Assembly (NCBI RefSeq): GCF_001939735.1
Contig: NZ_MJIL01000051.1
Span: forward strand, 1-64,000
Length of the DNA: 64,000 nucleotides
Direction of reading: 5' to 3'
Source: Photobacterium proteolyticum
GTDB taxonomy: Bacteria > Pseudomonadota > Gammaproteobacteria > Enterobacterales > Vibrionaceae
A model generated the notes under the pieces. The model had not been told where the DNA came from, ran no database searches, and saw nothing but the letters and a program-made list of their open reading frames with translations. The translations under genes were made by a program, and so were the position numbers. Of the stretch, positions 3,324 to 19,911 are shown piece by piece (within the stretch, counting starts at the first letter, position 1; each line of letters opens with the position of its first letter).

Positions 3324-3629
3324 ATACAGCGCTAATTATTGATTTCAATTTTCTTTTAATCTGTACTTTACTGAACGCAGCTTAATGTTTAGTTAACCCA
3401 TAATTCACATTACGTTCAGGTCTATAAAACAGCGGTAAGGGCGTAACATCACACAGAGGTAATCATACTCTTAAAAACCTGTACCTGTTACGTCAAATCG
3501 GCACCGAACAGACGTAATCATGTTACTTCCAAAGACAAGAATGCCTGGTATGGTGTGGGCTGTAAGACGGGCGAACGTCTTGCCCGCTACAACAAAGCCT
3601 AGAAGGGCCAGAAACCAACTCCTTTGTAT
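3324..3629. other. Intergenic, possible coding debris
   Basis: Contains the promoter side of the YgiW-like gene. A plus-strand open frame ends at 3601-3603 (last residues ..GERLARYNKA) with no start and no recognisable family; it may be the tail of a decayed gene. An inverted repeat of the GACGGGC type lies near 3567-3590. Confidence 0.35.
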
Positions 3630-4436
3630 TTAAAAATCATCCACCTCATCTAAAAATTCATCCAGATACTCTTCACCTTCCGGCTCTTCAGCAACACTTT
3701 CGCCACCTGTTGCACGGAAATTCTTGTTCTGGATGTAGGCATCCCGAGTGAATATGTATGGATCCGGCGAGTCTCTCAGCACACTTTCTTGAGAAACAAG
3801 TGCGGCGCGATCTTCCATGCCTTCAAAGACCCACTTGCCTAGGCTCTGCCAGAATGTCAGCAGGTTCAACGGGAAGTAGAGACCATCAACGGTATCACCA
3901 ACGCCTTCACGCAGGGTTACTGGGCCATAGAGCGGGAGCATGAAATAAGAGCCATTGTCTACACCGTAATAACCCATTGAGTCACCGAAAGCCCGATTAC
4001 CAGGTTTAGTGATACCTGCAGATGAGGCTATATCGATTAAGCCGGCTAAACCAAAGGTGGTGTTGATCCAGAAACGGTTAAAATGGGTAACAGCTTGCTC
4101 ACCATCGAGCATGATAATGCTGTTGACCATATTCGCGGGCTCATCCAAGTTGGACAAAAAGTTGCGAATACCCGTTCTAACTGGGGATGGTATGTAATCC
4201 ACATAGGCAATAGATACCGGACGCGCTAGATAAGGATCAAGATAATCGTAGTTAAGATCCCACATAGCACGGTTGAACCCTTCAAACGGGTCATAGGTGC
4301 CTTTGATATTGTACTGAGCATCTTGCTCGACGTATTCAGTGAGACCTTCTTCGTTTGGCGTTTCTGCACAGCCAGAGAGTCCCAAAACTAACAGAAAAGT
4401 TAAAATGGTCAAATTTTTCAATGGTTTATTCTGCAT
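3630..4436 (-). CDS. mlaA: MlaA (VacJ) outer-membrane lipoprotein
   Basis: Outer-membrane component of the Mla pathway, which removes mislocalised phospholipids from the outer leaflet and passes them to MlaC for retrograde transport. The signal peptide ends in the lipobox LGLSGC. The MlaA core is clear: DPFEGFNRAMWDLN, the PVSIAYVDYIPSPVRTG segment, a FLSNLDEPANMVN region and the NTTFGLAGLIDIA stretch. The acidic C-terminal tail (EEPEGEEYLDEFLDEVDDF) is common in Vibrionaceae. I take the ATG at 4436; the upstream TTG at 4442 adds two residues only. The length, about 268 aa, is normal. mlaFEDCB are not in the window, as is usual for mlaA. Confidence 0.93.
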   Translation of the reverse strand: MQNKPLKNLTILTFLLVLGLSGCAETPNEEGLTEYVEQDAQYNIKGTYDPFEGFNRAMWDLNYDYLDPYLARPVSIAYVDYIPSPVRTGIRNFLSNLDEPANMVNSIIMLDGEQAVTHFNRFWINTTFGLAGLIDIASSAGITKPGNRAFGDSMGYYGVDNGSYFMLPLYGPVTLREGVGDTVDGLYFPLNLLTFWQSLGKWVFEGMEDRAALVSQESVLRDSPDPYIFTRDAYIQNKNFRATGGESVAEEPEGEEYLDEFLDEVDDF

Positions 4437-4704
4437 AAACAAAAAGCAGCATTAATAATGCTATATCGTTCATAAATATTAACGACAATTGCGTGAACAA
4501 AATGTTTAGAGCAACTTACTACTCGATGGTTAGGAAACTCAATATGAGCTAACCATTAAGGGGATTTGAAGTCCAACGCTACGAAATCGTACGCTAAGAC
4601 CATTCGTCCAGATCTGATAGCTGCTTTAGCGGCCTGAGTTGTCCATTCATCACCTGCTCTGCCAGGGTGAACGATAGGGTTCTGTTGCAAAAATTTACTC
4701 AGGC

Positions 4705-5130
4705 TCAGAATTTCACTTTTCTGAATAAATAGTTGCCTTGAACTTTGCGCCATAAGCCGAAGACATCGGTACGCGGAAAAATCCCAATCCGGCGGATCTC
4801 ATAAGGGGCCTGATGGAATAGTAGCGGACCGGAGTTGACAGCGACGGCAAACTGGTACCCGACATCCTGAGTAATAGATTTGGTGTCCTCGTCATGAAGA
4901 CCAAACGGATAAGCAAAAGATGTCAGCGGCTTGCACAGAAGCTTTTCGAGCAGTTTTTATTATCGATGATTTCCTGATATTGCTCATCACGGCTAAGGTT
5001 GTCTAGTTTAGGGTGCGATATTGTGTGGCCACCAATTTCAGCCACGCTGGAGTCAGCCAGTGCCTTAATTTGTTCGTTTGTCATCAGGCTTACCTGAGTC
5101 TCGAACAGAAATGTGATTATGTAAATCAGG
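4705..5130 (-). pseudogene. Polysaccharide deacetylase, frameshifted 3' remnant
   Basis: Reading the minus strand from about 5130, one frame gives MTNEQIKALADSSVAEIGGH then TISHPKLDNLSRDEQYQEI, the HxxxH metal-binding motif of NodB-type deacetylases. Near 4950, in a run of five A residues (minus strand), the homology jumps frame and continues as LEKLLCKPLTSFAYPFG and on to GIFPRTDVFGLW before a stop at 4705-4707. The frame is also broken by a stop upstream of 5130, and the N-terminal catalytic Asp motif is missing. So at least one frameshift and a 5' truncation make it non-functional. It abuts the intron remnant, which may mark the breakpoint. Confidence 0.72.
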
Positions 5131-5189
5131 CAGAGCTATGGGAAAGAGTGACATCTTACCCCGGGAGATCTTATCAGTTGTCTTTTAGA

Positions 5190-5538
5190 CTAGGTTAGCA
5201 GTGATGTTGAACGAAGATTGATAAGAAGTCAGCAGAGGGCATAGTACCGACAAGAGTAGGGAAGGCCTGAACCGAGATTTTAGATATACGATTGATTATA
5301 TCTCAACACGATCGGAGTCTCAGACAAAGAGTCGAGAATCTACAGCTCCGTTGGCAATAATGGTGAAGTCGGAAATGGAACTATGGTCAACGAAGAGAGG
5401 CAAGTCGTAATGGCGTTGGATTTAAATGAAGAATATCTAAGCTAATCGCATGATTAGTTTCTCGGAACCGGCGTATGCGACCCACGCTTGTACGGTGGTG
5501 TGAGAAGACGGAGGCCGTGAGGCCATCTCCTACTCGAT
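5190..5538 (+). mobile_element. Deleted group II intron remnant
   Basis: The 3' part (5467-5538) has the look of group II intron domains V and VI. A 33-nt element with nested pairs ACC/GGT, CGTA/TACG and GCG/CGC is followed by GTGTGAGAAGACGG, a GGAGG..CCTCC hairpin and the terminal CTACTCGAT typical of bacterial introns. Upstream, the stretch reading AAGAAGTCAGCAGAGGGCAT around 5225 resembles the leader and first codons of intron reverse transcriptase ORFs, but almost the whole RT is absent. This is an internally deleted, immobile copy. The class is not assignable by eye. Confidence 0.55.
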
Positions 5539-5602
5539 TCTGCAACTGACTCGTACACTTATAAATGATAAGGGTAACGTAAACATAAGCACCTCATGTT
5601 AT

Positions 5603-5617
5603 TGATAACAATTATCA
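5603..5617. promoter_or_regulatory. Fur-box-like 7-1-7 palindrome
   Basis: TGATAACAATTATCA matches the 15-bp Fur consensus TGATAATnATTATCA at 14 positions (counting the free centre). It lies about 230 bp upstream of the large lipoprotein gene and next to the intron remnant. Which promoter it serves is unclear, since no complete iron gene adjoins it. Confidence 0.55.
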
Positions 5618-5845
5618 TTGGTGATAAGTATTCCACTAACTAATAGGATGCTATCTTTAATACTCTCTGCTGTTATGACGTACCGATAGTTATTAAGCGG
5701 CATAAACGACTCATTTCTCCAGCGTTGTACACCAGCGTTTTGATATAAACCTTGTTTATTAAACATGGCTGTTGTTGTTGACAATATCCCCTAGTAAAAC
5801 CTCATATGAATTAAAATGCGTATTTTGCTGAAAAGGTTAGGGGTT

Positions 5846-8524
5846 ATGTTAAGAGCTAAACTGAGTCTGGCCATTTGTATGGCTATTGGTCTAACGTCTT
5901 GCGGGGGGGGATCGGGTGGAGGGGACGGCAAAACAACGCCAGCAGAGCCATCTGTACCTCAGGTTGAGACCAAACCTGATTTTTCCGTACTGGCTATCGA
6001 CGGTTACCTGCATAAGGCGTTGGTATGTGAGGATATCAATCTTGACTTACAGTGTAGCGATGAAGAACTACTGGGCCGTACAGATGAAAACGGTAGGCTT
6101 AAGGGCAAAAGGCTGAATGAAAATGCCCCGTTATTGGTTACTGCAGTGCCGGGGATGACGATCGACAGTGATCGACCGAACCAAACAGTCGATCATGCCT
6201 TTGCTATGTATGGCTTGCCTGGCCAGGTTGCTGTTACCCCTTATACCCATCTAGCCTATTCTTTGGCAAAAGAATCTGCGGCTGGCGCTGAAATTACGCA
6301 AAGTATGTTTGCCACAGCGCAGGCTGACGTTGAGGCGATGATGAAGCGCACCTTGCTGCTTGATCAACATGCTGAGATGACCCAGGTTTGGGGGGATTAT
6401 ATATCGGCCAGGGGTTCCAGTTCTGGGCAAGAACTCCTTGCTCAAATTCACTTTGTTGCGAAGCTCATGGCAAAACTTCAGTCTCAGAAAGAGGTGGTAA
6501 CAGATGTGTCAGATTATCTGACGGCTATTCCTGGTTATCAGTCAGATATAAACAGCATTGACTGGAGCAAACCTGTCCCGGAAGTGGCTTTAGATAAAGA
6601 TGGTCAGTTGAATATCAACTATTCGCCAACAGTAAATCTGGATCTTAAGGCTGAGCTTGAAATGGAACTTGAGCAGGCAGGTTTCATTCAAGGCGAAGAG
6701 TACGGTGCTTATCTACAACTCGTTGAGCCCTATGGCCCTTCGTTGTTCAATGACGACAAACCTATTTCATTTTCCGCTATTACCTTGGATACAATGTTAG
6801 TCAACGGCCTGACATTGACATTAACCTCAAGTGAGAACTACGTTCAGCTTGCGGTTAAGGGGGTTGCTGAGGTAGCCGGGGCGGTCAGTATTCCGCTTAC
6901 TTATACCGACAGTGATGGCGTTAAAGCGAAATTGACACTCGATTTCGAGGTGAAGCCAAGTGAGAAAAATCTCCCGCCTGTTGTGAATCAAAATGTAAAA
7001 GCTCAGATTGATAGTGATATTGCGAATCAGACCTGGCAGCAAAAACAGCCTGTCAGCATCAACACGAATGCATTGTTTAGCGATCCTGAAGGTAAGGAAC
7101 TGATTATTACTGCCAACCTGCCTGCTGGTTTGAGCTATAACCCCGATACAGGGCTGATCCAGGGTGAACCAACGATAGCCGGGGCTGGGCAAATTATCTC
7201 TCTCATTGCGCAAGAAGCCACTAACCGTCAGTTTGTCGATGTTCAATTCTCTGTACCTGAGATATTACCGGCGAAAGGTGCATCCAATGACTTGATTGCA
7301 AAACTTGAGTCACAGCCGTACTACCTTGTCGAACGTCACTCCGTTGCATCAGATTTCTTGCACAGCCTCGCTTGCAAGCAGGTAACATTTGCCAATGGCA
7401 AGATACATGTAGTGGCGGGTAGCAGCGATTGTGAGGTTGCAAACGCAGAGAGTACCTTGTTAGGTGAGTATCAGGTACAAGATGGCAAAGTATTTGTGAC
7501 CTATCAAGATGATGGTCGACGTGTCAGCTTCAGTGAATATCCGCAACCAGATATGGTTTGGGGAGCCTTCTTCATTCTTGAACAGGCCGAGGAAGAAAGC
7601 AACGAAGGGTTCAAGAAAGAGAGAGTTCTGCGATTTTACGACAATACGGTTGCAGCAGAGCAGGCCGGTAAACGTTCAAAAGGGCAATTCTTGTTCAATG
7701 GTAAGTTAGAGTCGGTTGAAGCCAGGGCCTATCGCTATTGGGATAATGATACAACAGTGTTCGTTTCAGCAGAGATCAGCTTTAAGGACCGCGATTGCTA
7801 CCCATTATTCTGGCCACAGTCACTCTGGGATAAGGACCAATATTACCTTACGGATATCGTGAAAGCGTCTTTTGCTATAGAGGGATATGCACAGGGAACC
7901 GTAACTACATCAGTGGCGCATGATAACGGTTTTGACTGCATTATAAAGGCCAGTTTTGCTGCTGATGCTGCAACGGATAATCCGTTAGCCCAGTTAATGC
8001 CGCTTAACTCTGCTCATTTTGAGCTCAAGCCCGATTGGGTTGGAGAGATGGAAGCGATAGTGCTGTCGACGCCAATTGGTCAGCCAACGTGGGACAATAC
8101 GGATTTACACTCTTTGGATCTTGATACTTACTACATCGTAGCGACCAGAAAACAAAATGAGACCTCAGGTGGATCACCGGATACTCAGCGCAATGAACTT
8201 TACAAAGTGACAAGCCAAGGTGACGGCAGTTGGCATTTTGAACAGTGGCAGGACAGTCAATGGGCACTTGAAGACCAAATCAAGGCTGTGAGCTATCACT
8301 ATGACAAGTCGAAGACAAATGCACGTGGCATCCTTGTTTTTGGGCCTAGCGATAGTTGGATACATGATTTGAGTAAGGCTCAGCAGGAGCTGTATACCAA
8401 GCAGGATCCGTCAGCAAAAGAAGGGGCGATTCTGGGAGCCCCAGACTATAATCTTGGGCGTATTTACTCTGATTTTAACAATGCCTTAATGGATTATGAG
8501 CAGGATGCCGTGGCATCGCAGTAA
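5846..8524 (+). CDS. Large surface lipoprotein with Ig-like/cadherin-like segment
   Basis: A predicted lipoprotein of about 892 aa. The signal peptide MLRAKLSLAICMAIGLTSC is followed by a Gly-Ser-rich linker (GGGSGGGDG) and a Pro-rich tether. A carboxypeptidase-regulatory/SdrB-like module follows (VCEDINLDLQCSDEE, then a TDENG turn). Midway, a dystroglycan-type putative-Ig segment is visible (LFSDPEGKELIITANLPAGL, then a TGLIQGEP strand). The C-terminal third has several Cys residues and no family I recognise. I prefer ATG 5846, preceded by AGGGG; ATG 5816 would add ten residues. The role is unknown; secreted adhesin-like or polymer-binding functions are plausible. It converges on a second lipoprotein of similar architecture. 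Confidence 0.7.
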   Translation: MLRAKLSLAICMAIGLTSCGGGSGGGDGKTTPAEPSVPQVETKPDFSVLAIDGYLHKALVCEDINLDLQCSDEELLGRTDENGRLKGKRLNENAPLLVTAVPGMTIDSDRPNQTVDHAFAMYGLPGQVAVTPYTHLAYSLAKESAAGAEITQSMFATAQADVEAMMKRTLLLDQHAEMTQVWGDYISARGSSSGQELLAQIHFVAKLMAKLQSQKEVVTDVSDYLTAIPGYQSDINSIDWSKPVPEVALDKDGQLNINYSPTVNLDLKAELEMELEQAGFIQGEEYGAYLQLVEPYGPSLFNDDKPISFSAITLDTMLVNGLTLTLTSSENYVQLAVKGVAEVAGAVSIPLTYTDSDGVKAKLTLDFEVKPSEKNLPPVVNQNVKAQIDSDIANQTWQQKQPVSINTNALFSDPEGKELIITANLPAGLSYNPDTGLIQGEPTIAGAGQIISLIAQEATNRQFVDVQFSVPEILPAKGASNDLIAKLESQPYYLVERHSVASDFLHSLACKQVTFANGKIHVVAGSSDCEVANAESTLLGEYQVQDGKVFVTYQDDGRRVSFSEYPQPDMVWGAFFILEQAEEESNEGFKKERVLRFYDNTVAAEQAGKRSKGQFLFNGKLESVEARAYRYWDNDTTVFVSAEISFKDRDCYPLFWPQSLWDKDQYYLTDIVKASFAIEGYAQGTVTTSVAHDNGFDCIIKASFAADAATDNPLAQLMPLNSAHFELKPDWVGEMEAIVLSTPIGQPTWDNTDLHSLDLDTYYIVATRKQNETSGGSPDTQRNELYKVTSQGDGSWHFEQWQDSQWALEDQIKAVSYHYDKSKTNARGILVFGPSDSWIHDLSKAQQELYTKQDPSAKEGAILGAPDYNLGRIYSDFNNALMDYEQDAVASQ

Positions 8525-14306: not shown

Positions 14307-14702
14307 TTATAGGTAGAAATTCCATTTTTTGCTTCGGTCCAGATAGGGCGGCAGTGGGCTGGATGTTGAGAAAACCCATTGATTGTGCTCCCATTTGGCG
14401 ACAAATTTCGCTAACTCGTCAACATTTCTTCCTGTCCCGCGCAGTACTTTCCCACCGCAATCCGGACACGGCTTTAAGTCTGACTGGGCAGATGCCATAG
14501 CCGTTCGGTTACACTTAGAACAAACGGTTACCGCCTTGTGTTGACCAATATGAATGTATGCATTTGGTTTTATTTGCTTTACTGGGTCTTTAGAGTGAAT
14601 GCAGCGAACAGTGGCTAAGTCGCTTTTTCTCACTTTATTTGAAGAGGCAACGTTGTCCTGTTTATTCTTCTTATTTGTGCGACCAAATAGCTTTGATAGC
14701 AT
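14307..14702 (-). CDS. Small zinc-ribbon protein
   Basis: A soluble protein of about 131 aa. The basic N-terminus (KLFGRTNKKNK) is followed by one CxxC (VCSKC) and one CxxCG knuckle (CPDCGG) about 25 residues apart, the pattern of a zinc ribbon. I start at ATG 14702 with AGGG upstream; the frame upstream to 14837 has no homology-like features. A C-terminal segment rich in Trp and Pro follows the ribbon. The function is unknown. It lies divergently next to the rtcB operon with a strong inverted repeat in between. Confidence 0.6.
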   Translation of the reverse strand: MLSKLFGRTNKKNKQDNVASSNKVRKSDLATVRCIHSKDPVKQIKPNAYIHIGQHKAVTVCSKCNRTAMASAQSDLKPCPDCGGKVLRGTGRNVDELAKFVAKWEHNQWVFSTSSPLPPYLDRSKKWNFYL

Positions 14703-14771
14703 ATTGCATCCCTTGCATAGTCTGTCAGTTAATACTTTATATCTGCCCAAGATTTTGTATTTTAAGTAAAA

Positions 14772-14811
14772 ATGCTTATTTAGCTTATCTCTGGTTAGGC
14801 TAAATAAGCAT
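14772..14811. repeat. 13-bp perfect inverted repeat
   Basis: ATGCTTATTTAGC and GCTAAATAAGCAT flank a 14-nt spacer, about 70 bp upstream of the zinc-ribbon gene's start. There is no T-run, so an operator or a 5'-UTR structure is more likely than a terminator. Confidence 0.6.
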
Positions 14812-15030
14812 ATGGTAGCGTTTAAACCTGTCGTCAATTTAATGCTGGGCTCTCTTTATCTGCTTAAAATAGTATCAACAATTCACGTTATGGTGCAATG
14901 ATAAATTACTCATTTCATTGAAAAATAGATTTGTGACGAAAAAGTATTTATTTCATGCATTATTAATAATGATGTTTAGTGATGTTATTCTAAATATATA
15001 AAAAATAATAAGAAATATAGGTTAATGCCA

Positions 15031-15089: not shown

Positions 15090-16286
15090 ATGCCTGTGCT
15101 TACTGTTTATCCTCCGACTGAACAACAGCTCCATCCGGTAAAAGTGTGGACCACTGATATTGATGTGCAGACTGGCGAGCAGCTTAAAAGAACCGCTTCT
15201 TTGCCGTTCATTTATCATCATGTTGCCGGAATGCCTGATGTCCACCTGGGTAAAGGGGCGACGATTGGCAGTGTTATTTCGACGGTGAAAGCTATCATAC
15301 CCGCCGCTGTCGGTGTCGATATTGGTTGCGGTATCAATGCTGCTCGTCTGTCGCTGACAGCTTCGGACCTGCCCGATAATCTCAAAGAACTTCGCTACGC
15401 AATTGAGTCGGTTATTCCGGTTGGACCTGGCCATGAGCACCAGACTGCCAAGATCAGGGGAGACTCTGAGTTGGCCAAGGGGCTGGACAAGATCGTGCAG
15501 GAAAATCCGGAGTTACGAAAAATGATTAAACCGGGGCGCTGGGCATATCAAGCAGGCACGTTGGGAGGAGGAAACCACTTTTTCGAACTCTGCCTCGATG
15601 AGTCGGATAACTTATGGGTCATGCTGCACTCTGGAAGCCGGGGGATAGGCAATGCGATTGGTCGCTATTTTATTGCCCAGGCCAAACGGGATATGGAGCG
15701 GCATCATATTCACTTGCCTGATGCAGATTTGGCTTATATCCAGGAAGGTGCTCGTTATTATCACGGTTACATCGAGGCGGTGAGCTGGGCACAGGAATAT
15801 GCTCGTATAAACCGTGAACTGATGATGAAGGCTGCGCTTCGGATCCTCGCTCGTTACCTGCCAGACTTTTCAGTAACCCAAGAAGCGATTAACTGCCACC
15901 ATAACTATATTGAACGTGAAGTGCATTTTGGCCGAGAAGTATGGGTAACCCGTAAAGGAGCGATTCGGGCTGCGATGGGGGATTTGGGGGTGATCCCCGG
16001 CAGTATGGGCACCTGTTCTTACGTTGTGCGCGGAAAAGGCAATCCGGAGTCATTTTTCAGCTGTAGCCATGGCGCTGGTCGAAGGCTGTCTCGCACTCAG
16101 GCGAAAAAGCAATACACGGTGCAAGATCTGAGAGAGCAGACAGCCGGTGTTGAGTGCCGTAAAGACAAAGGTGTGATAGATGAGATCCCACAAGCATACA
16201 AGGATATAGATACGGTAATGAAAAACCAGAGTGACTTGGTTGAGGTGGTCCATGCCCTGCGACAGATAGTCAATATCAAGGGTTAA
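15090..16286 (+). CDS. rtcB: RNA ligase RtcB
   Basis: GTP- and Mn2+-dependent RNA ligase that joins 2',3'-cyclic-phosphate or 3'-phosphate ends to 5'-OH ends, used in tRNA and rRNA repair. At 398 aa it is close to E. coli RtcB (408 aa). Conserved blocks are visible: MPDVHLGKGATIG, the metal-binding Cys in VGVDIGCG (C80), GGGNHFFE, CHHNY, and SHGAGR with the guanylate-accepting His at residue 327. GAGG lies 8 nt before the ATG. It is followed after 37-55 nt by the Clp1/RNase Z fusion gene on the same strand; there is no rtcA or rtcR nearby. Confidence 0.95.
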   Translation: MPVLTVYPPTEQQLHPVKVWTTDIDVQTGEQLKRTASLPFIYHHVAGMPDVHLGKGATIGSVISTVKAIIPAAVGVDIGCGINAARLSLTASDLPDNLKELRYAIESVIPVGPGHEHQTAKIRGDSELAKGLDKIVQENPELRKMIKPGRWAYQAGTLGGGNHFFELCLDESDNLWVMLHSGSRGIGNAIGRYFIAQAKRDMERHHIHLPDADLAYIQEGARYYHGYIEAVSWAQEYARINRELMMKAALRILARYLPDFSVTQEAINCHHNYIEREVHFGREVWVTRKGAIRAAMGDLGVIPGSMGTCSYVVRGKGNPESFFSCSHGAGRRLSRTQAKKQYTVQDLREQTAGVECRKDKGVIDEIPQAYKDIDTVMKNQSDLVEVVHALRQIVNIKG

Positions 16287-16323
16287 TTATACTTATAACA
16301 AAGGCTGGTTACTCGACCGTCAA

Positions 16324-18291
16324 GTGATAGCGGATCTGGTTATGGTATTACCGCAGCAGCAACTTTCATATACGCAAGGCGTGGATCATCTATTTCAAAC
16401 ATTATTAAAGCAGCATGAGCGAGTTCTGTTGTTCGGTCCGACAGGTGCCGGTAAAAGCTATATGGCGGCCGAATTGGCAAGGCGATTGAGTGCTGCTGAT
16501 CAGTCGTGTGTTTGCCTAAGTGCAGATCCCGGGTCACCAAAGTTCGGTGTGCCGGCGGCGGTTAACATCGGTATCTGGAGAGATGACCTGTGGCGATTAG
16601 CTGACTTTGAAGCTTTATGTAGCCTGGATGCAGCACGTTTTCGCTTACCGTTGGCAGAGGCGGTGAGTCGTTTGCTCCTAAGAACCACCATAAAGCACTC
16701 CTTGCTTATTGATGCCCCAGGGATGACCAGGGGAGTGGCGGCGGCAGAGTTGCTAACCACTTTAATAAACCTGACGGCTGCAACGGTACTGGTTGTATTG
16801 GATGACAATCAGGACGGTTCAATTGACCTGGCCCCCGAGATTGGCAGCATCAACCTCCCAGTTATATGGATTTCAAGTTCAGAAGATGCCCGTGCTCCCG
16901 GCCGATTTCAGCGTTTAACATGGCGTACACAACTGTGGGATTCCTATATGGACGGTGCAGAGGAAACCATTTTGCCGATTGATAGCGTCGCTGTGCTGGG
17001 TACGCCTCCTCCGATTAAAGAACCGGAAAAATGGTGTGGCCGATTGATCAGCCTGAGTGATGAAGACGGATTGATCAGCATGGGGGAAGTGCTGGAGTTG
17101 GAGCAGGGTAATATTAGGTTACGGTGTCATGAGTTGGGACGATTGCCCTCTCAATTGTTACTGCGTGACGCATGGCACTTACCGGGGCAAAAACTGGTGA
17201 CGGTCAATCACTGGAAGAAGGCCGAATCAGATACAACTGCATTTAAAGGCTCTTCGTTAGTGTATCCGTCAGACCATCGAGAGTCAGTTAGCTGCACTCA
17301 GATCCGCCGCAGGGATATCACAGCGGAACTGGTAAATAGTCTGTTCGAAGATCCACTGTTATTGCTCAAAACCAACTGGAGTCGGCGCTGCCTGCTGTTT
17401 GATCTTGGCAATACCTCACGGCTCCCCATGCGCCACACTCATAATGTCAGCCATATCTTCATTACGCATGCCCACTTTGATCACATTGGTGGCTTCATGG
17501 GGTTGCTTCGGGTTCGGCTGGGCGCACCCGCCTCTTGCACCCTGTATGGCCCACCGGGCTTGGCACGACATATTGCCGGTATGCTTAGCGGTATCTTGTG
17601 GGATCGTATTGGTGATAACGGTCCAGAATTTAACATTGCAGAGCTGCATGGAGAGGTATTACGTTGTTTTTGCCTTAGGGCCGGGGCGGAAGAGATTATC
17701 GTGATGCCTGACAGGCGAGTGAAGAGCGGTATCATTCATCAGGAGGAGCGTTTTTTGGTACGCGCCGTGGAGCTGGATCATGGTACGCCTGTGCTGGCTT
17801 ATGCTTACGAGCCTGTGTCTGCTGTTGTTGTCAGTGAAGATGCTCTCTCTGAGCTTGAGTTACAGCCAGGCCCCTGGTTGGGTAAACTCAAATACGCCTA
17901 TATGGCGGGGGAGCATGGCCTCACGGTTACATTACCTAACGGAGAAAATCGGTTGGTAGGGGATTTGGCGGGCCAGCTGCTCTGTACACAGGCAGGTAAA
18001 AAGCTCGTCTATGCCACAGATCTTGCCGATACGATTCAAAATAGGGATAAGCTGATAGCTTTGGCACGCCATGCCGGCACACTGATTTGTGAAGCCTCAT
18101 TTTCCCGGGATGACCAGTTTCGGGCAGTCAATAACGGTCATTTGACGACTACTGCCTGCGGTGAAATTGCCGCTGCCGCCGATGTTGAGCAGCTAATGCC
18201 GTTCCACTTTTCACGTCGTTATGAAGGTGATCCTGAAAAAATGTATCGCGAAATAGAAGATGTCTTTTCGCGTGTTATCAGAATTGCCTGA
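16324..18291 (+). CDS. Clp1-like P-loop domain fused to RNase Z-like metallo-beta-lactamase
   Basis: A 655-aa two-domain protein. Residues about 20-210 form a P-loop NTPase with Walker A GPTGAGKS (38-45), an LSADPGSPKFG motif and a LLIDAPGMTRG Walker B-like strand; this resembles the Clp1/Grc3 polynucleotide 5'-OH kinase group. A beta-rich linker (about 220-330) follows. The C-terminal half is an RNase Z-like metallo-beta-lactamase: HAHFDH (382-387), the ELDHGTPVLAY strand, an ATDLAD metal ligand, NGHLTTTACGE and the MPFHFSRRY end that parallels the RNase Z 'GHSTAxxAA' and 'HxSpRY' motifs. Its position directly after rtcB points to RNA-end processing. The start may be GTG 16324 or ATG 16342; neither has a strong Shine-Dalgarno. 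Domain calls are by motif; the fused activity is inference. Confidence 0.75.
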   Translation: MIADLVMVLPQQQLSYTQGVDHLFQTLLKQHERVLLFGPTGAGKSYMAAELARRLSAADQSCVCLSADPGSPKFGVPAAVNIGIWRDDLWRLADFEALCSLDAARFRLPLAEAVSRLLLRTTIKHSLLIDAPGMTRGVAAAELLTTLINLTAATVLVVLDDNQDGSIDLAPEIGSINLPVIWISSSEDARAPGRFQRLTWRTQLWDSYMDGAEETILPIDSVAVLGTPPPIKEPEKWCGRLISLSDEDGLISMGEVLELEQGNIRLRCHELGRLPSQLLLRDAWHLPGQKLVTVNHWKKAESDTTAFKGSSLVYPSDHRESVSCTQIRRRDITAELVNSLFEDPLLLLKTNWSRRCLLFDLGNTSRLPMRHTHNVSHIFITHAHFDHIGGFMGLLRVRLGAPASCTLYGPPGLARHIAGMLSGILWDRIGDNGPEFNIAELHGEVLRCFCLRAGAEEIIVMPDRRVKSGIIHQEERFLVRAVELDHGTPVLAYAYEPVSAVVVSEDALSELELQPGPWLGKLKYAYMAGEHGLTVTLPNGENRLVGDLAGQLLCTQAGKKLVYATDLADTIQNRDKLIALARHAGTLICEASFSRDDQFRAVNNGHLTTTACGEIAAAADVEQLMPFHFSRRYEGDPEKMYREIEDVFSRVIRIA

Positions 18292-18396: not shown

Positions 18397-19911
18397 TCAG
18401 TTACCGAGCTGAATCCTGGCAAAATGGCTATTGGATTGGCTGATATTGATAGCGCTTAATTCAATGCTGGAGCGTAATAAGCCCTCAGAGATATCAATAC
18501 CAAACTCAGCCAGCACACTGCCCGAAAGCCTAGGAGTGATGGGAGCGTAGCTTAGCACCACCTGACGAAGAATGTTGCCTACCACAAAGCAGGTGTTCCT
18601 CACATGTTGGCTATCTCGTCCTTTGCTGATAAGCCAAGGTGTACGCTGGTGGAAAAAGGTATTCAGCTGATCAAGGATTTGCTTGAGAATTAAAGTGGCC
18701 TGATATAAATCATATTCCTTATAAGAGTGAATGACTCTTTCAAGCTCATTCTGACAGGAGGCCAGCAACTGCTCACAGTCATCATCGAGGGTATGTTTGA
18801 TGGTTTCTTCTAATTGCCCATCAAAGTACTTCAATATCAGGGTGTTATTTCGCTTCACCAAATTGGCAAGGTTATTGGCAAGATCGGCATTAACTACCTC
18901 GGTCAGTTCTTCGATGGCGACATTGCCATCGCGGAAAAGAGGTTTCTGTCTTACCAGCGCATAACGAAGGCCATCAGAGCTAAGCTGGTGGCTGAAGGTA
19001 TTGGGGTTAACCGTTGTTTCAGGATTGGATTTGGATATTTTTTGCCCGTTTATTGTCCACCAACCATGAACCACTAGTTTTTCAGGTAAAGGCAGCTCAA
19101 GAGCGAGTAAGAAGGCTGGCCAATATAACGCGTGAAACTTAAGAATGTCTTTTCCCAAGACATGGACTGTCTGAGATATTGATTGGTTAGCGTTACCTGT
19201 TTGCTGGATAGCGGTGATATAACTGAATAGGGCATCAATCCAGACATACACCGTGTGCTCGTTATTGTTAGGGACTTTGATCCCCCATGCGTTGTTAATT
19301 CTGGATACCGAGAGATCTTCCAGCGGGCCTTCTTGAAGCAATGAAACAATAGAATCTTGAAAATGTTTAGGGGTAATGAGCTCAGGGTGTGTCAGATAGT
19401 ATTCCAGCAATCGCTGGCGGTATTTTTCCAACCGGAACAGATACGTCTCTTCTTCAACCGTTTCAACTTCCCTTCTATGCACTGGGCAAAGGTTACCTTC
19501 CAATTCTCGAGGAGAGTAAAATTGCTCACAGGCAACACAGTATTGTCCTGAGTATTTTCCCAGATAGATATCGTTATTCTCGAATAATTGTTGCCACACA
19601 GCGCTGATATGATCTTTATGCTCTTGCTGGGTGGTTCGAATGAAAATATCGGGGTGAATATCCAGTTCCGGCCATAATCCCGAGAAAACAGCGGCTTTAG
19701 TATCAACAAACTTTGTGACATCTGTTCCTGCTGATTGTGCCGTAGAAGCGATCTTCAGCCCGTGCTCATCTGTACCGGTAATGAATACATTTTTCTGCCC
19801 TGTTAACTGTCTGAAGCGATGGAATATATCGGCAATGATCCCACTATAGGCGTGGCCGAGATGCGGATCGCCATTGGCGTAGAAAATAGGGGTGGTTACA
19901 AAAGATGTCAT
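18397..19911 (-). CDS. Methionyl-tRNA synthetase paralogue (short form)
   Basis: A class I aminoacyl-tRNA synthetase for methionine, 504 aa. The HIGH box is HLGH (residues 17-20), GTDEHG follows, and the KMSKS loop appears as KISKS near residue 291. The insertion domain has only CVAC and CPVH as a single zinc knuckle. The C-terminal tRNA-binding domain of the about 680-aa housekeeping MetG of Vibrionaceae is missing, and the anticodon-binding helical domain is divergent. It is therefore probably a second MetRS. Such paralogues sometimes confer resistance to MetRS inhibitors or serve special conditions. AAGGAG precedes the start. It converges on the rtcB operon. Confidence 0.85.
   Translation of the reverse strand: MTSFVTTPIFYANGDPHLGHAYSGIIADIFHRFRQLTGQKNVFITGTDEHGLKIASTAQSAGTDVTKFVDTKAAVFSGLWPELDIHPDIFIRTTQQEHKDHISAVWQQLFENNDIYLGKYSGQYCVACEQFYSPRELEGNLCPVHRREVETVEEETYLFRLEKYRQRLLEYYLTHPELITPKHFQDSIVSLLQEGPLEDLSVSRINNAWGIKVPNNNEHTVYVWIDALFSYITAIQQTGNANQSISQTVHVLGKDILKFHALYWPAFLLALELPLPEKLVVHGWWTINGQKISKSNPETTVNPNTFSHQLSSDGLRYALVRQKPLFRDGNVAIEELTEVVNADLANNLANLVKRNNTLILKYFDGQLEETIKHTLDDDCEQLLASCQNELERVIHSYKEYDLYQATLILKQILDQLNTFFHQRTPWLISKGRDSQHVRNTCFVVGNILRQVVLSYAPITPRLSGSVLAEFGIDISEGLLRSSIELSAINISQSNSHFARIQLGN

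Follow-up and report, generated by a model that had tools for sequence, protein, structure and literature searches.

A Clp1-like/RNase Z-like fusion gene adjoins rtcB in Photobacterium proteolyticum: a candidate partner in bacterial RNA repair

The best-known bacterial systems of RNA repair are the rtcBA operon and a few ligase operons. RtcB reseals RNA that carries a 2′,3′-cyclic phosphate or 3′-phosphate and a 5′-OH, and the 5′-OH required by RtcB is removed by a Clp1 kinase. Here, we describe a gene pair of Photobacterium proteolyticum in a stretch of 64,000 nucleotides (contig NZ_MJIL01000051.1, positions 1 to 64,000; hereafter the window): rtcB (15090..16286, + strand) is followed by a gene (16324..18291, + strand) that joins a Clp1-like domain to an RNase Z-like domain, hereafter the fusion. 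The fusion is real and structurally well supported, and it recombines known kinds of enzyme; its kinase activity, nuclease activity and joint action we infer. The interpretation given in a preliminary description of this locus is partly supported: both domain calls hold, the linkage with rtcB is mixed and joint action belongs to what we infer. Its argument that a kinase of 5′ ends would work against RtcB is a sound one, with a eukaryotic precedent in CLP1 and RTCB, although the animal results on this rivalry are not in full agreement (PMC13247085).

The fusion encodes 655 residues from a GTG codon; an alternative ATG at 16342 (+) would give 649 residues and fits the database copy, which is 649 residues long. 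The Clp1-type half (residues 15–287; 16366..17184, +) comprises a P-loop domain and a Clp1 C-terminal domain (about 222–287). It is followed by a low-confidence linker (residues 298–323; 17215..17292, +; predicted local distance difference test score below 50 at 298–308 and 318–323) and by the RNase Z-type half (residues 332–655; 17317..18288, +). Both halves score above the Pfam cut-offs, with 35.8 bits for CLP1_P (cut-off 26.6) and 55 bits for Lactamase_B_2 (cut-off 27). Of 7998 scored candidates, 928 pass E 0.001 as homologues, and PF16575 and PF12706 stand together in one protein in 119 of the best 120 of these 928 (the exception, P0009, has 447 residues and lacks PF16575). The fused gene is therefore not an assembly accident, and the proposal of one gene joining the two domain types is borne out.

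The predicted structure of the N-terminal half shows the Clp1 fold in fold comparison, with both its P-loop and C-terminal domains. A profile search of this half against the PDB placed Midasin P-loops ahead of Grc3, a ranking that we set aside since the fold comparison groups it with Clp1. Residue conservation was counted over 68 sequences. The Walker A motif GPTGAGKS (residues 38–45; 16435..16458, +), with Lys44 in 67/68 and Ser or Thr at position 45 in 67/68, agrees with the pattern GxxxxGK[S/T] of Clp1 kinases. This pattern, together with Walker B [D/E]hhQ, clasp [T/S/L]xGW and lid RxxxxR, is taken from PMC6777427. The Walker B and clasp patterns are not matched: the window fusion reads DPGS at the former (Asp68 in 68/68, Gln in 0/68) and DAPGM at the latter (DxPG(V/M/L) among the sequences, Trp in 0/68). 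The lid is RxxxR, one residue shorter than the pattern, with Arg197 and Arg201 in 68/68, and a block RFRLPL is invariant. We therefore call the N-terminal half Clp1-like, on the strength of its fold and nucleotide site, but with the Walker B Gln and clasp Trp missing we do not class it as a proven Clp1 kinase.

The RNase Z fold covers the whole C-terminal domain in fold comparison. The motif THAHFDH starts at residue 381 (HAHFDH at 382–387; 17467..17484, +) and FHFSRRY at 627. The HxHxDH motif plus the His, Asp, His set is present (His382, His384, Asp386, His387, His486, Asp566 and His628), and we take these residues to be the metal ligands. All are invariant in the 68 sequences, as are Glu590 and His606, save His384 (67/68), and the arm motif GLxPGPWLxELK aligns with its counterpart in 1y44 and 2cbn, both RNase Z chains. 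The fusion falls below the curated cut-offs of PRK02126 ‘ribonuclease Z’ (NCBIfam; 273.2 bits, cut-off 315) and TIGR02651 (116.3 bits, cut-off 292.95); a stand-alone nuclease in genome G172 passes PRK02126 with 463.6 bits. For both halves, profile and predicted fold agree with the original motif-based calls, a Clp1/Grc3-like P-loop domain with GPTGAGKS at 38–45 and an RNase Z-like metallo-β-lactamase with HAHFDH at 382–387 and an HFSRRY end. As judged from sequence and predicted structure, the fusion holds a complete Clp1-type P-loop half whose nucleotide site is intact and a complete half of the RNase Z zinc endonuclease type whose active site is intact.

The upstream gene encodes an RtcB of 398 residues that matches PF01139 with E 5e-127. 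Its residues were placed by alignment to PDB chain 7p3b (‘RNA-splicing ligase RtcB homolog’, taken as human RTCB), with residue roles from PMC8668186. By this alignment, Asp77, Cys80, Asn162, His163, His180, His271 and His327 take the places of the metal ligands, the phosphate-binding Asn and the nucleophile; the codon of the GMP-accepting His327 lies at 16068–16070 (+), and the histidine reported in the preliminary description is indeed intact. This is the sole RtcB match in the 6.48 Mb genome, in which the fusion is single-copy and rtcA (PF01137) has no match. The protein is of the short type, with 30% identity to the long-type RtcB of G045. Archease lies within the fetched flank at 22/22 long-type rtcB loci of genomes with the fusion or a stand-alone nuclease (five flanking genes were verified as PF01951) and at 0/8 short-type loci read. 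The two genes of the window share a strand and are separated by 37 bp (GTG start) or 55 bp (ATG start), the spacing first given, and a site scan compared with shuffles found no terminator-like site between them; this short gap without a terminator-like site makes co-transcription as an operon likely. Near the operon, promoter- and terminator-like sites show no excess over shuffled sequence, and an Rfam scan at gathering thresholds gave no RNA element.

Linkage with rtcB, on which the preliminary description made its reading depend in part, holds within Photobacterium and largely fails beyond it. The family sample contains the fusion in 7/150 genomes, all Photobacterium, and rtcB lies upstream in six of the seven: intact and directly adjacent in four (G000, G510, G479 and G512), intact but about 1.5 kb away, with one opposite-strand open reading frame between, in G516, and as a remnant in P. 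alginatilyticum (G503). On its 4-kb contig, the G512 fusion is split between two frames, through sequencing error or decay. The remnant (L001 7759–7923; G503:C60:100358-100564), 55 residues at 76% identity with internal stops, lies directly upstream of an intact fusion that is 93% identical to that of the window. The ratio of nonsynonymous to synonymous rates (dN/dS) between the G000 and G503 fusions is 0.097, which indicates purifying selection on a fusion in use even in this lineage, where the loss of rtcB may be recent. In the seventh genome, G405, rtcA is directly upstream of the fusion; this genome also has two RtcB genes, one, rtcB, on a small contig apart and the other, divergent, on a further contig.

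In a sample of 369 genomes of the class (match cut-off 1e-40), 30 match: 14 hold full fusions (window genome included), three hold fusions cut at contig ends (G062, G290 and G313) and 13 hold stand-alone nuclease halves. Of the 13 full fusions outside Photobacterium, one lies behind rtcA (G045) and 12 adjoin neither rtcB nor rtcA. In G052, one of the 12, rtcA, archease and rtcB are located 9–11 kb from the fusion; the fetched stretches of the other 11 contain no rtc gene (more than 2.5 kb upstream in ten, 111 bp in G008, where the contig ends), nor do those of Halomonas urmiana and four phylum genomes. One recent transfer is an unlikely source of the two rtcA linkages, since identity between G405 and G045 is only 41% for RtcA and 44% for the fusion. 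The phylum sample (cut-off 1e-70) yielded 5/398 genomes, including two from outside the class, and order-level searches around G045 (two genomes) and G300 (three genomes) yielded nothing further. Seven plasmid records match at E 1e-30, by the nuclease half only and at 34–36% identity; among IMG/VR viral contigs, a scan by pattern gave 122 matches and 0 confirmed relatives, the annotated phage collection lying outside this search. A conserved third partner was rejected by clustering of neighbours and a scan of ten neighbours (disregarding some antisense open reading frames predicted in G+C-rich stretches): neighbours vary by genome (MazG-like in G360, CheR in G184, DUF6763 in G052), and none is common beyond the rtc genes. 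A defence system was likewise rejected, on the plasmid and viral results above and on PADLOC, which matched the fusion only weakly, in the P-loop region, and RtcB not at all. Directly behind both the contig-cut G290 fusion and the stand-alone nuclease of G241 is a ribonucleotide reductase large chain (L087 1693–3579 and L133 602–1705).

The association was also counted over whole genomes. rtcB occurs in 128/369 class genomes, namely in 27/30 with the nuclease half versus 101/339 others (Fisher p 8e-11) and, with one count per family, in 22/23 versus 59/159 families (p 4e-8; 182 families being the highest family number seen), both tests ignoring deeper ancestry. It is present in 12/14 full-fusion genomes (11/13 outside Photobacterium; G067 and G337 lack it) and in 12/13 stand-alone-nuclease genomes. 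The Clp1 profile matches 18 class genomes, of which 15 have rtcB, or 14/15 without three bare P-loop matches; this search overlooked three full fusions (G045, G061 and G337), two of them with rtcB. The class sample also holds four stand-alone Clp1 proteins (105–112 bits), with no rtc gene in their 1.5-kb flanks. In G172, such a gene (110.7 bits) lies about 80–130 bp, depending on the start codon, upstream of the stand-alone nuclease; the separate genes adjoin in fusion order, which we read as independently pointing to cooperation of the halves. The stand-alone Clp1 and nuclease genes of G121 and G236 are on different contigs.

We consider the balance to be even for a reading in which the fusion is a bifunctional RNA-end-processing enzyme that shares with the Rtc enzymes one pool of broken RNA, most likely tRNA. 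RtcB, aided by RtcA where present, would reseal breaks bearing a 2′,3′-cyclic or 3′-phosphate and a 5′-OH; the Clp1 half would phosphorylate 5′-OH ends and so put them out of reach of RtcB; and the RNase Z half would cut the same RNA at the acceptor stem, on its 3′ side. RtcB and the fusion would then form a ‘seal or remodel/discard’ switch, a single-chain counterpart of the eukaryotic partnerships of nuclease and kinase TSEN–CLP1 and Las1–Grc3. Our preference is for an accessory enzyme through which broken tRNA is remodelled or discarded in competition with resealing, because a Clp1 kinase removes the 5′-OH needed by RtcB and because ordinary maturation of tRNA here seems able to do without RNase Z: CCA is encoded in 14/15 tRNA predictions of the stretches scanned (two of the 15 from Photobacterium), and RNase Z matches are weak in all four fusion-less Photobacterium genomes searched. 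The bolder form, a bacterial nuclease–kinase machine in a single chain that rivals RtcB for broken tRNA as a seal-or-destroy checkpoint, parallel to TSEN–CLP1 and Las1–Grc3 and scattered over Gammaproteobacteria, is put forward tentatively, as somewhat doubtful.

The same apparent dispensability suits the main constructive rival, which we think unlikely. Here the fusion would reset both termini of damaged tRNA, with putative 5′-OH tRNA ends as substrate: the kinase would restore the 5′-phosphate, RNase Z would trim the 3′ end to the discriminator base for CCA re-addition and RtcB would mend internal breaks. From domain identity, the two activities fall on opposite acceptor-stem strands, and adjoining tRNA ends would favour one polypeptide. 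The missing Walker B Gln and clasp Trp, with the invariant RFRLPL block, could instead mean that the Clp1 half has ceased to be a kinase and serves as an RNA-binding module, gated by nucleotide, by which the RNase Z half is aimed or switched. This seems improbable, as Walker A, the Walker B Asp and the lid arginines are invariant or nearly so, and the four stand-alone Clp1 proteins likewise have Leu or Ile for the clasp Trp and an RxxxR lid, though they keep the Walker B Gln. Finally, the fusion might have its own RNA substrate, the rtcB neighbourhood and co-occurrence reflecting shared ancestry or lifestyle; the 12/13 class fusions outside Photobacterium that adjoin no rtc gene, the two genomes without rtcB and the remnant in G503 point this way. 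We give this reading little chance, as the neighbour varies between rtcB and rtcA yet remains in the Rtc pathway and the association holds when counted by family.

No description of a Clp1–RNase Z fusion was found in the open-literature titles, abstract starts and passages covered, although an earlier mention may exist elsewhere; a paper on Clp1 proteins across all domains of life (PMC6777427) contains neither ‘RNase Z’ nor ‘lactamase’. Tied to rtcB or rtcA, a fused 5′-kinase-like enzyme and nuclease of the tRNA type would add a step that decides between sealing and further processing. The rivalry of CLP1 and RTCB could be studied with two bacterial genes, and the fusion may suggest a role for the rare bacterial Clp1-type proteins. 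Its place beside RNA-repair genes hints at a little-studied handling of broken RNA.

Around the gene pair, a 176-residue zinc-ribbon-like protein with no Pfam or NCBIfam family above cut-off is encoded upstream of rtcB on the opposite strand (14307–14837, −). A 504-residue methionyl-tRNA synthetase (18397–19911, −) is above the TIGR00398 cut-off, scores best with PRK12267 (505 bits, cut-off 598) and lower with PRK00133 (295 bits, cut-off 587), and is possibly a second, foreign enzyme; P. alginatilyticum has a 504-residue open reading frame at the equivalent position (L001 10860–12374). An Rfam match to group II intron D1–D4 lies at 5190–5267 (+; 63.1 bits, cut-off 35), and neither of the two open reading frames of at least 200 residues overlapping 3500–8500 looks reverse transcriptase-like by eye.

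Compared with the rtcBA operon of Escherichia coli and Salmonella, the locus has in common an RtcB that carries the active site, and the fusion stands directly behind rtcA in two other genomes; behind the window rtcB, however, is a kinase–nuclease fusion, in a genome with no rtcA match. The archease–rtcB loci read here have a long-type rtcB, whereas that of the window is of the short type. With Clp1/Grc3 kinases (CeClp1, 4ohy; human TSEN complex, 8hmy_E; Las1–Grc3, 8puw) the fusion shares the P-loop and C-terminal domain fold, Walker A, the Walker B Asp and the lid arginines; unlike them it has no Walker B Gln or clasp Trp and is attached to a metallo-β-lactamase nuclease, and its match to eukaryotic Clp1 starts past the N-terminal domain of the latter (chain residues 82 on). 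With RNase Z/RNase BN (1y44, 4gcw and 2cbn) and PRK02126 it shares the whole fold, all zinc-site residues and the arm motif; it differs in scoring under the curated cut-offs, in the Cys that opens what we take to be its ‘HEAT-like’ motif and in the Clp1 half that precedes the nuclease. Clp1/Grc3 kinases work next to nucleases in eukaryotes, whereas in the fusion the nuclease partner is covalent.
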